A DNA stretch of 46,014 bases, taken from positions 1-46,014 of the forward strand of contig JAFZQT010000089.1 of the NCBI GenBank assembly GCA_017620235.1, read 5' to 3'. The notes under the pieces were generated by a model. That model saw only the letters and a list, made by a program, of their open reading frames with translations, had not been told where the DNA came from and did no database searches. Made by a program: the position numbers and the translations under genes. The stretch is from Butyrivibrio sp. (lineage in GTDB: Bacteria > Bacillota > Clostridia > Lachnospirales > Lachnospiraceae). Positions 216 to 45,283 of this stretch are shown in pieces; positions within the stretch are counted from its first letter, which is position 1; every line of letters starts with the position of its first letter.

Positions 216-680
216 TTATTTTATAAAACTTTTTTCAAAAAGCTCTTGAATTTTCCCGAAAAGCAGTTCCCATGCGGCTTGGAGGCTTGTCAATAGCTTT
301 ATACCAGTAATATACTCTATCAGGTAAAGAACCGCTATTGCTTCAAGTAATCCAAGAACTGCTCCAAGAATTTTGTCAAAGCTTCCCAAAACCGGAATTT
401 CCTTCATTTTCCTGAGGTTTCCGCCAATCGCATTCATGACTCTGTAAACAACAAATGCCACGATCAGATATCCGATCTTTGGAATTATGTCCCCAAAGCT
501 TTTATCCAGGACGTTTTCCGTTATTCCCATTACAAAATATACAGACGCAAATGTTGCCAAAACAGCAAGTAAGCCTGCCGCTTCCGCAACCAGGCCACTA
601 TTTGATCCGTATGATATTCTCCATAAAATAATACAGACTACCGCAATTGTTATTACGATCTGTGAAATATCCAAACTCAT
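216..680 (-). CDS. CvpA family membrane protein
   Basis: A 154-residue, very hydrophobic protein with four probable membrane segments (about residues 7-24, 32-53, 66-87 and 103-125) and a short charged tail. The size, the topology and the conserved short loop between the third and fourth helices match the CvpA/colicin V production family, whose members affect envelope functions; the exact role in Firmicutes is unknown. It starts at ATG behind AGAGGA. It is the last gene before the rRNA promoter and lies 45 bases after the DUF5711 gene on the same strand, so the two are probably cotranscribed. Family assignment is by overall character rather than by a diagnostic motif. Confidence 0.65.
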   Translation of the reverse strand: MSLDISQIVITIAVVCIILWRISYGSNSGLVAEAAGLLAVLATFASVYFVMGITENVLDKSFGDIIPKIGYLIVAFVVYRVMNAIGGNLRKMKEIPVLGSFDKILGAVLGLLEAIAVLYLIEYITGIKLLTSLQAAWELLFGKIQELFEKSFIK

Positions 681-725
681 AAATATCCTCTGTCTGTGCT
701 CTCATATCAGCACAATGCTGCTAAA

Positions 726-1949
726 TCACTTGAGTACCAATGAATCAATGCTCTTCTTTGTCGCCAAAATAAAGTTACTCTTCGAGCCTGTAGGTATCAT
801 TGTTCTTACAGGTTCTTCAAAAGTCCCCTGATATTTGACTCTTCCCTTCATATCCTTTAGCAAGTAATCATCTTGATTGTAGATAATAATCTGCTTGTTG
901 CTAAAAATTATTTCCGAGTAATCCATGTCAAAAAATGTAGTAAGCACCAGATTTCCTGATAAATTATACACTTGAAGCCTATACGCTCCTTTTTCGGAGC
1001 CTTCCGCAAATACAAGCCCAACATACGAATCACTGTAGAATACAGATCTTATTTCATCCTCGCCAATTTCCGCTTCTGCCTGTTTCTCAGGTTTTTGTGC
1101 TCCGGAATAAAACATTATCTTATCGTTAGAAACCGAAACCGCTTTATCGGGACTGAGAAATTGAACAAAAGGAACAACCGTGTTGGGAAAATTATAAGAA
1201 CTCATCAAATGATCACCGGCGTTTTGTCCAACGTTGCCGAAATTATAAAAAGCAACTTTCGTCATTATCGATCCATTCTCAGGTCCCAGATAGGATACAC
1301 ATAGAAGTTCACCATTTGGAGAGATACTTATTTTCTCGGGATATCCATAGTCTTTCATCGTCGTTTGAGATCTGGTAAGCAATTCTCCCTGAGCGCTGTA
1401 CAGTTTTATCCATGTAACATCTTCTCCGTCAAGAACTGCAGCCACAACACCCTGCGAAGATACGCAAAAATCTCTTATAGGCAGGTCTGTAGGAATTTTC
1501 CCCAAAGGTCCATTAATGTCACTCACATAAATCTCATGCCCGTTATAATCTGCTATAGCCATGGTATTCATGCATGTTCGCGTTATCGGATTCTGCATCT
1601 GATAAGGCTGAGTCCACAACGCTTTGCCCGATGAATCATAACAGCTTACGCCATCCTTACTGCATCGTATCATGTGCCCGCCAAGACTAACTATACGTGT
1701 ATCGTCTTCAATCGATATCGGTACACCTTTTACCGTAATAGCCTCAGAATACTGCTTATCACGCCAGCTTATATAAATAACCGAGATCAAAGTTGTACAA
1801 GATACGATAAGAACCACCGCTCTAATAAAAACTTTAAGCTTGTGGCTCCTAATCTTTTCCTTGTAAGAGGTCTGCCTGTCAGAAGCACCGCTCTTTTTCT
1901 TGCTATTTAATTTACCAGCATATGTACTAAAGTCACGTACTTCTGCCAA
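726..1949 (-). CDS. DUF5711 family membrane-anchored beta-propeller-like protein
   Basis: A 407-residue protein with a basic cytoplasmic N-terminus (residues 1-37), one membrane helix (about 38-60) and a long external domain of repeated beta-strand units such as SLGGHMIRCSKDGVSCYDSS, typical of a WD40/PQQ-like propeller. I recognise the arrangement as the DUF5711 family found in Lachnospiraceae and Ruminococcaceae; no biochemical role is known to me. The start is a TTG six bases after GGAGG. It sits between galM and the CvpA-like gene in the same direction, with 56 and 45 base gaps, so it is probably part of one transcription unit ending before the rRNA operon. Confidence 0.7.
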   Translation of the reverse strand: MAEVRDFSTYAGKLNSKKKSGASDRQTSYKEKIRSHKLKVFIRAVVLIVSCTTLISVIYISWRDKQYSEAITVKGVPISIEDDTRIVSLGGHMIRCSKDGVSCYDSSGKALWTQPYQMQNPITRTCMNTMAIADYNGHEIYVSDINGPLGKIPTDLPIRDFCVSSQGVVAAVLDGEDVTWIKLYSAQGELLTRSQTTMKDYGYPEKISISPNGELLCVSYLGPENGSIMTKVAFYNFGNVGQNAGDHLMSSYNFPNTVVPFVQFLSPDKAVSVSNDKIMFYSGAQKPEKQAEAEIGEDEIRSVFYSDSYVGLVFAEGSEKGAYRLQVYNLSGNLVLTTFFDMDYSEIIFSNKQIIIYNQDDYLLKDMKGRVKYQGTFEEPVRTMIPTGSKSNFILATKKSIDSLVLK

Positions 1950-43997: not shown

Positions 43998-44798
43998 TTA
44001 GATCAGATAGTTCTCAATCATAGTCTTAATTATATATGAGCTGACAGCATGCTGAGAAGTCTCAAATGTCATGATCATGTTTTTCCCTGGGTAATACCCA
44101 TTCTGTTCATATGCATTTATCTTAGAAATATTCTTGTTTGCATATGCGATATTATCCATCATTCCAAAGTGTTCCCAAATAAACTCTTGCCCTGTTCTCA
44201 CGTTAAGACAAGTAAAATCCGGTCTCACAGTTCCAACGCCATTAAGCATAATTGGATATTCATAATGATATGGAACGGCTTCACGCTCCAACATGTTTGC
44301 TATGATCAGCTCTGATTTAGACCTTACTCTTATACCGGAATGAGAATAAAATTCTCCTTTGCTCTCATCATACTCCATCGGTTCATAGCTTACATTTCTC
44401 CAACGTTCCACAAACATTTCCTTGGGTTCAATAATTGGTGTAACGAGCTTCTTCCTGGCATCTGCAATTCTTAAATATACCTTTTCCACGCCTTCTATAT
44501 CATAGTGCTTAATGAATTCACTTATTTCATTTCGCATGTGCACAAGCTTATTTTTCACCAGCATTTCATAATCGCGTTGTGCCACCTTCTTAAGCTTTTC
44601 TTTCTCATCGTTCTTCGCGTACTTCCTTTTTTTAGTTACTCTATCCACCCAGTAATATTGATCATTACCATTACTCCTGCTTATAGCAATTCCGCAATTA
44701 CTCAAGTCTTTTAGCTTTGAAGCTCTTTTATCTATCTTTAAAATCAAGCCATCAATCTCTTTCAATTGTTCCTCTAGATTGCTTTTGTAATTTTGCAT
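43998..44798 (-). CDS. PD-(D/E)XK nuclease-like protein with N-terminal coiled coil
   Basis: 266 residues. The first 110 or so residues are Lys/Glu-rich helices (probable coiled coil) with an aromatic strand QYYWVDRVTKKRKYAK. The C-terminal half has the order expected for a PD-(D/E)XK fold: RSKSELIIANMLE (Glu), VRPDFTCLN (Asp) and EFIWEHFGMMD (Glu, with His where Lys is usual). I know this as a common but unnamed family in gut Clostridia; its role, defence or mobile-element related, is unproven. ATG behind GGGGAAG. The phased motif array lies directly upstream. Confidence 0.75.
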   Translation of the reverse strand: MQNYKSNLEEQLKEIDGLILKIDKRASKLKDLSNCGIAISRSNGNDQYYWVDRVTKKRKYAKNDEKEKLKKVAQRDYEMLVKNKLVHMRNEISEFIKHYDIEGVEKVYLRIADARKKLVTPIIEPKEMFVERWRNVSYEPMEYDESKGEFYSHSGIRVRSKSELIIANMLEREAVPYHYEYPIMLNGVGTVRPDFTCLNVRTGQEFIWEHFGMMDNIAYANKNISKINAYEQNGYYPGKNMIMTFETSQHAVSSYIIKTMIENYLI

Positions 44799-44888
44799 TA
44801 CTCAACTTCCCCTTTTATATAGTGATTCGCGTTTTTGTGATATATTTTGCTTCTTCTACGCCCCTACGTTATATGACTCTGCTTACGC

Positions 44889-45117
44889 TTACGTGATGCG
44901 ATTTGATACCTCTCCCTCTTTCACGTAAATCTATCTCAACAATTTGTTGTGTTACGTGTATCATCACTTACTTCTACCACCATTCACGTAAATTTTCATG
45001 ATCGGCCAGTTGATTTACGTGTGTTGTCACGTATCTTTTAGTTCCTTCACGTAAAAAATCCTGATTCTCGCCCAAATCTACGTGTAATACTCCAATCAAC
45101 TGCGCAAACTCACGTAA
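44889..45117. repeat. Phased array of alternating TTACGTG/CACGTAA motifs, 63-base period
   Basis: Motif starts are 44889 (TTACGTG), 44922 (CACGTAA), 44952, 44985, 45015, 45048, 45078 (CTACGTG) and 45111: strictly alternating orientation with steps of 33, 30, 33, 30, 33, 30 and 33. The 23 and 26 bases between motifs are not alike. An extra CACGTAT at 45028 is out of phase. The motif in reversed orientation is flanked as TTCACGTAAA, and the other as TTACGTGTR. Read on the minus strand the motifs stay in one frame (Leu-Arg-Glu and His-Val every 21 codons), but stop codons interrupt that frame in the third and fourth units. Confidence 0.9.
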
Positions 45118-45152
45118 AACAGACTTTATCATTTCTACCATCTTGGAATTTG

Positions 45153-45187
45153 TGTGGCGAGTATTAGCCACAGAGCCGAATGGCTCT
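45153..45187. repeat. Two adjacent small hairpins between promoter and array
   Basis: TGTGGC (45153-45158) pairs with GCCACA (45167-45172), and AGAGCC (45172-45177) pairs with GGCTCT (45182-45187) around GAAT. They would form tandem stem-loops in a transcript started at 45202-45230. Confidence 0.6.
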
Positions 45188-45201
45188 AATAGAACAATAG
45201 G

Positions 45202-45230
45202 ACTATACGCTCTCACGTAAAAAAAGTCAA
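45202..45230 (-). promoter_or_regulatory. Promoter with array motif in its spacer
   Basis: On the minus strand: -35 TTGACT (45225-45230), a 17-base spacer and -10 TATAGT (45202-45207). The spacer contains TTACGTGA (45213-45220), the same motif as the array. It points through the hairpins and array toward the nuclease-like gene, 400 bases away. Confidence 0.55.
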
Positions 45231-45283
45231 GCGCCCCTCACAGTACTGCAGCTTGACACATTATACTCATTGTCAAATTCCCC

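Follow-up and report, generated by a model that had tools for sequence, protein, structure and literature searches.

A helix-phased array of inverted motif pairs beside a nuclease-like gene in Butyrivibrio, a candidate landing platform for the encoded protein

What keeps eight short motifs at fixed distances in a piece of intergenic DNA? The question is raised by a contig of Butyrivibrio sp. (JAFZQT010000089.1, assembly GCA_017620235.1; 46,014 nucleotides, hereafter the window), in which TTACGTG and its reverse complement CACGTAA alternate over positions 44889 to 45117. An earlier note, made from the letters alone, read this array as selected for motif and spacing, and named an operator, a partition or recombinase site, or a structured RNA as possible roles. 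We consider it rather probable that the array serves the protein of its own nuclease-like gene as a landing platform on double-stranded DNA, within a dispersed repeat-plus-nuclease system that is like, but not a member of, the REP/RAYT systems (repetitive extragenic palindromic sequences and REP-associated tyrosine transposases). Of the earlier interpretation, the DNA-level protein site is supported and the RNA stem-loops are not; the linked nuclease gene, its paralogues and the dispersed copies of the motif had gone unseen.

The window array is real and is one among many. As first described, the eight motifs (starts at 44889, 44922, 44952, 44985, 45015, 45048, 45078 and 45111) follow in steps of 33-30-33-30-33-30-33, which gives four inverted pairs with arms 33 base pairs (bp) apart and linkers of 30 bp. 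Seven of the eight are exact, the exception being CTACGTG at 45078. Over positions 44801-45250, the alternating chain with exact spacing has eight members (6-mer core), far above the maximum of one in 2,000 dinucleotide shuffles. The array lies 91 bp upstream of a gene for a 266-amino-acid nuclease-like protein:

44889..44928, no strand: inverted-pair unit 1 (TTACGTG ... CACGTAA), by motif positions
44952..44991, no strand: inverted-pair unit 2, by motif positions
45015..45054, no strand: inverted-pair unit 3, containing an off-phase CACGTA at 45028-45033
45078..45117, no strand: inverted-pair unit 4, with CTACGTG as its left arm
43998..44798, minus strand: 266-amino-acid nuclease-like gene; N-terminal coiled-coil with a beta tip, C-terminal Vsr/EDxHD-like domain at about residues 160-266

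A search of related genomes for the spaced pattern, as the earlier note had advised, showed that such arrays recur in many of them. The nuclease-like gene is multi-copy: it is matched in 56 of 99 relatives' genomes, frequently more than once, and the window's genome carries four copies, each with an array and a motif of its own. In a species-genome collection, 581 stretches encode a relative, and the best 80 of the 581 include Treponema and Fibrobacter metagenome-assembled genomes. Among the 120 homologues listed out of 405, the source names given read "hypothetical protein", in records of Butyrivibrio and Lachnospiraceae. We kept 218 of 225 distinct upstream regions, dropping those shorter than 300 nucleotides or with more than 50 N; 122 of these 218 distinct members have, upstream, a chain of four or more exact 6-mers in alternating orientation, mostly with other motifs. 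An earlier, narrower set gave an upstream array in 70 of 137; its controls reached a chain of four in 4 of 77 downstream regions and 1 of 411 shuffles. TCACGTA(A/G) is common to the orthologues of the window gene, and other members carry, for example, GTGGCA, CAACAG or GCACCG. One array (L104; L, G and C handles denote loci, genomes and contigs) has 38 motifs over ~1.2 kb upstream of its gene.

The spacing of these arrays agrees with the proposal that the sites lie on one helix face. Among 71 distinct arrays of five or more motifs, the periods are 44 (one array), 51-54, 62-65, 73-76 and 84-85 bp, clustering near 53, 63, 74 and 84 bp, or 5-8 turns of ~10.6 bp; four-motif arrays scatter more widely (periods 52-96). 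With turns assigned by rounding, and with the single 44-bp array and the four-motif arrays (52-96) left out, 70 arrays fit period = -0.13 + 10.60 x turns (slope 10.43-10.80). When thinned to one array per protein cluster at <60% identity, 50 arrays fit -1.1 + 10.75 x turns. We read this spacing as B-DNA phasing.

The repeat unit is the inverted pair, not the single motif. Whole numbers of inverted pairs make up 61 of 74 gene-linked and 43 of 53 dispersed arrays (three GCACCG arrays among the latter have opposite ends). In 46 of 58 spacing classes, leaving out 10 odd-ended and 2 near-duplicate ones, the arm-to-arm distance within a pair is 29.8 +/- 2.6 bp, and linkers are near 2, 3, 4 or 5 turns. 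Since the within-pair distance is steady and the linkers fall at whole turns, the inverted pair is the module, and the modules are set in phase.

A coding repeat was considered and ruled out: stop codons break the motif-phased frame in the window translation, just as the earlier note had reported, and many periods, including the common 52, 53, 64, 65 and 76, are not multiples of three. The spacers had been called unrelated. This is nearly right for the window, where the autocorrelation at 63 bp (0.36-0.37) is barely above that of the next lags (~0.32-0.35), but the spacers of relatives are drifted copies of tandem units, as in L002 (126-bp autocorrelation 0.50).

Orthologous arrays show what has been conserved. 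At four dispersed loci common to G046 and G016, motif columns are 98, 94, 95 and 97% identical and spacers 89, 60, 59 and 65%, so that selection on motif and spacing, as first proposed, is supported at three of the four (94-97% vs 59-65%). Three of four gene-linked pairs likewise have motif columns better kept than spacers (L001/L002, 93 vs 63%; L003/L004, 98 vs 77%; L171/L080, 97 vs 74%). The arrays also come and go. At the L315 locus, 512 bp are replaced by 59 bp in G035, whose flanks are 97% and 94% identical, and by 8 bp in G033. At the L317 locus, the array is retained in G033 (at 99%), while G035, which has no match to the cognate gene at 1e-70, has 12 bp replacing 545 bp and what we read, from the sequence, as a decayed half-unit. 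The L314 array is absent from both. A functionless tandem repeat in passive decay would account for the tandem duplication of units and for array polymorphism; it would not account for the drift of spacers around preserved motif columns in three of four dispersed pairs, for whole-turn periods, or for motifs tied to the linked protein and, for GCACCG, to gene presence (see below). We give this explanation almost no weight.

For the linked protein, searches of Pfam (at 1e-3) and of NCBIfam (up to E 1) both came back empty. In the predicted structure, the fold of its C-terminal half resembles Vsr/EDxHD/TnsA nucleases, and E163, D194, H210 and D215, putative catalytic residues of the EDxHD type, are invariant in 66 sequences. 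Residues 144-264 match the C-terminal end of the PADLOC candidate defence protein PDC-S68 (E 1e-26). A further relative (92% coverage, 35% identity) lies at 380-1114 (-) of MT839528.1, an unannotated 4.2-kb record from human faeces that is labelled as phage. The N-terminal part holds the segment that follows the array motif:

44655..44690, minus strand: codons of residues 37-48, the predicted beta-hairpin that tracks the array motif

In 992 protein pairs, the motif similarity that overall identity leaves unexplained follows this hairpin. The peak comes from pairs of 40-85% identity, a range chosen after all pairs of 117 arrays had given no clear protein-motif peak (top windows 161-176 and 9-24); it holds at 40-60%, at 45-70% and without the window orthologues. 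Single columns beyond the hairpin also score (N240, 0.29; L118, 0.22). The relation, for example SNG with CGTA, a rule first noticed and then counted in one data set, is a putative DNA-recognition code, open to direct test.

Arrays also occur away from the genes, where their distribution follows gene presence strictly for one motif and more loosely for two. Seven of 63 genus genomes contain GCACCG arrays, with no control matches, and these are exactly the seven with a gene 57-100% identical to L171 (0 of 56 others), the 57% line having been set after the gap to 48% was known; among the matches listed, G016, G046 and G024 have several loci each. CAACAG arrays occur in 16 of 63 genomes, including six of the seven whose protein reaches 75% identity or more to L086. 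The window motif with its spacing is found away from the gene on C40 and C123 of its genome and on seven further contigs of G026, and its pattern is matched in 22 of 63 genomes, eight of them with one-mismatch matches only; a backward control also gives one-mismatch matches, 0-2 per strand and genome. In G054, the orthologous locus is kept and most of the gene is deleted (L291). Some arrays have unusual settings. An element of ~280 bp with terminal inverted repeats and a captured array sits in unrelated places in G012, G041 and G052 (L287-L290). In G046, CAACAG and GCACCG arrays flank one gene (L301; 2251-2653 and 3269-3606), and the closest L086 relative found in this genome (67% identical) itself has a CCTGCC array.

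Dispersed sites near genes could be operators, with a nuclease-fold regulator that represses its own gene and controls other array-bearing genes. The first window-motif arrays suggested such a regulon, and the array does lie within the 5' region of the nuclease-like gene. We collected clusters of at least four exact motifs, 53 from 54 loci (five loci gave none and some two; L322 proved gene-linked). Of these, 45 have co-directional neighbouring genes, and the other eight are split evenly between convergent (4) and divergent (4) settings. When each gap is counted once, the co-directional class is slightly enriched (35 of 41 vs 74 of 108 other gaps, p 0.04), which favours operators, as does the recurrence of a few gene families beside arrays of different motif: YbaK-like (L280, L304, L317) and aldo-keto reductase genes (L281, L302, L314, L309) in different genomes. 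However, the bias to gene starts that the first arrays had suggested is gone with the 53 clusters: co-directional clusters lie a median of 192 bp from the next start and 162 bp from the previous stop, and only 18 of 45 are nearer the start. The nuclease residues are also invariant. The plain operator of the earlier note is therefore not favoured, and we regard regulation in this form as unlikely, although it ranks first among the rivals, ahead of holding or self-marking and then RNA.

In the landing-platform reading, copies of the protein are predicted to bind the four inverted pairs as dimers, side by side on one helix face. Each protein probably reads one arm of 7-9 bp through its N-terminal beta-hairpin, which the coiled-coil would carry to the arm at its tip. 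Within a dimer, the two proteins would come into contact above the unconserved DNA that separates the arms, and their Vsr/EDxHD-like nuclease domains would be placed there; neighbouring dimers would touch, because the linkers are whole turns. The same protein would bind matching arrays elsewhere in the genome. Cutting or nicking within units, followed by recombination, would explain the tandem turnover, the constant motifs and the presence or absence of arrays among close relatives, and a selfish repeat-plus-nuclease system would result from such turnover and spread. The system may bring some benefit to the host, and the array in the gene's own leader may serve autoregulation.

Several observations weigh against this reading. 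A nuclease that lives alongside many intact target sites ought to harm its host unless restrained. A Foldseek comparison of the predicted protein with the PDB gave no match at E<=0.001, and protein windows outside the hairpin (109-120, 49-60 and 55-66) are also slightly above the permutation limit. The thinned set of 50 arrays (slope 10.75, 10.49-11.07), taken alone, is compatible with an 11-bp repeat. Gene and arrays do not always go together: G060, G027, G012 and G041 hold 0-mismatch window-motif arrays without a close orthologue among the listed gene matches; most genomes with a window orthologue show the gene-linked array only; G012 has a protein 75% identical in the CAACAG case and no CAACAG array; G046 has many CAACAG arrays (C2, C3, C6) and a best protein only 67% identical to L086; and G033 has the gene, yet at two of the three loci compared its array is missing. 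In L171/L180, one of the four gene-linked comparisons, motif columns have no advantage over spacers (0.82 vs 0.85).

In a further explanation, the arrays could hold back a nuclease whose targets lie in other DNA, or label the chromosome as self, in a defence or addiction module. Several gene-array pairs of different motif in one genome (four in the window's), the match of the C-terminal part to PDC-S68 and the loss of arrays in G035, a relative without the gene, would all suit this idea, but some gene-bearing genomes show the gene-linked array only, and we think it quite improbable. A related speculation, to which we attach a very low probability, is a DNA antitoxin: helix-phased arrays would silence a dimeric nuclease by holding it in a nucleoprotein filament, from which it would be freed when host DNA is lost or broken down, and the cell would become addicted to arrays with the motif of its own paralogue. 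If so, several orthogonal gene-array pairs per genome, each read by a changeable beta-hairpin, would form a new kind of DNA-integrity-sensing defence layer.

The order along the gene's strand raises the remaining alternative, as a promoter-like site is followed by a leader with two hairpins and AAAUUCC, the array and the start codon:

45202..45230, minus strand: promoter-like site, TTGACT (45225-45230), 17 bp, TATAGT (45202-45207), read from sequence
45214..45220, minus strand: extra single TTACGTG in the promoter-like spacer
45145..45187, minus strand: leader, with hairpin AGAGCC/GGCTCT (45172-45187), hairpin GTGGC/GCCAC (45154-45171) and AAATTCC (45145-45151)

The single TTACGTG sits between the -35-like and -10-like boxes of the nuclease-like gene; because of this position, protein bound there would block the promoter. 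The leader (a GGC..GCC hairpin, then A/U and UUCC) has no Rfam match and recurs in relatives whatever the array motif: with the promoter, the pattern occurs in 15 of 217 upstream regions and in none of 20 shuffle rounds; without it, in 20 of 217, where shuffles average 4.9 and the antisense strand gives 7.

The array could thus be transcribed with the gene, and its hairpins could bind and restrain the protein, as in type III toxin-antitoxin systems. This would suit both the one-strand order and the recurrent leader, and transitions in arrays more often keep G-U pairs than break them (126 vs 73; 35 arrays vs 10). That hint comes mostly from an excess of C>T over G>A (74 vs 24), while A>G (52) and T>C (49) are about equal; transcription-linked deamination would likewise give an excess of C>T over G>A. 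The covariation analysis called for in the earlier note, run on 57 arrays, points to DNA and not RNA. Pairing within hairpins is no better than between hairpins (core 0.951 vs 0.951), cognate and non-cognate pairing differ by no more than 0.03 in either core or flanks, and no within-hairpin covariation was found in these arrays, so the transcript as a row of stem-loops is not borne out. Compensatory changes that had seemed apparent by eye failed the same cognate vs non-cognate count. Periods in whole turns, and arrays in many other intergenic places, also argue against an RNA role, which we judge very improbable.

Three things not known together meet in the landing-platform system: a large unnamed protein family of Lachnospiraceae and other gut bacteria, whole-turn arrays, and dispersed arrays matched to paralogues. 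No description of such a gene-plus-repeat partnership was found in the literature searched, where most subscription papers fell outside coverage. Type III toxin-antitoxin systems (ToxIN, CptIN) share a repeat array upstream of a nuclease gene; the system here differs in its lack of RNA covariation across the 57 arrays, in DNA-phased spacing, in dispersed arrays and in having no ToxN-like family match in Pfam. The EDxHD homing endonuclease I-Bth0305I shares the Vsr-like nuclease fold, but here the target sites are intact beside the gene and in arrays, the N-terminal part is different, and no intron or intein context turned up, none being sought. Array presence differs at near-identical flanks, and gene homing was not seen at those loci. 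PDC-S68 is a protein of ~1,200 amino acids, against 266 for the window protein, and the likeness covers profile positions ~1088-1250.

The closest parallel in behaviour is REP/RAYT. Two papers describe dispersed regular repeats in alternating orientation, matched to and co-evolving with a resident nuclease gene that bears its own repeats (PMC2817692; PMC8266576). Tested here, gene presence likewise correlates with dispersed repeats, as for GCACCG (7/7 vs 0/56) and more loosely for CAACAG and the window motif. Membership is rejected because the enzyme and the form of the DNA differ. RAYT is an HUH enzyme related to IS200/IS605 that acts on folded single strands, with inverted REPs on both sides of its gene. 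In the window system, by contrast, the protein has a fold like Vsr/EDxHD/TnsA, with no HUH/Y1 transposase match in Pfam at 1e-3; the arms are non-palindromic and 7-9 bp long, the spacing is in whole turns, and arrays lie upstream (70/137), rarely downstream (4/77). If our reading is correct, the persistence of repeats together with a partner nuclease in bacterial chromosomes would have a second, unrelated explanation, where the answer has so far relied on REP/RAYT.
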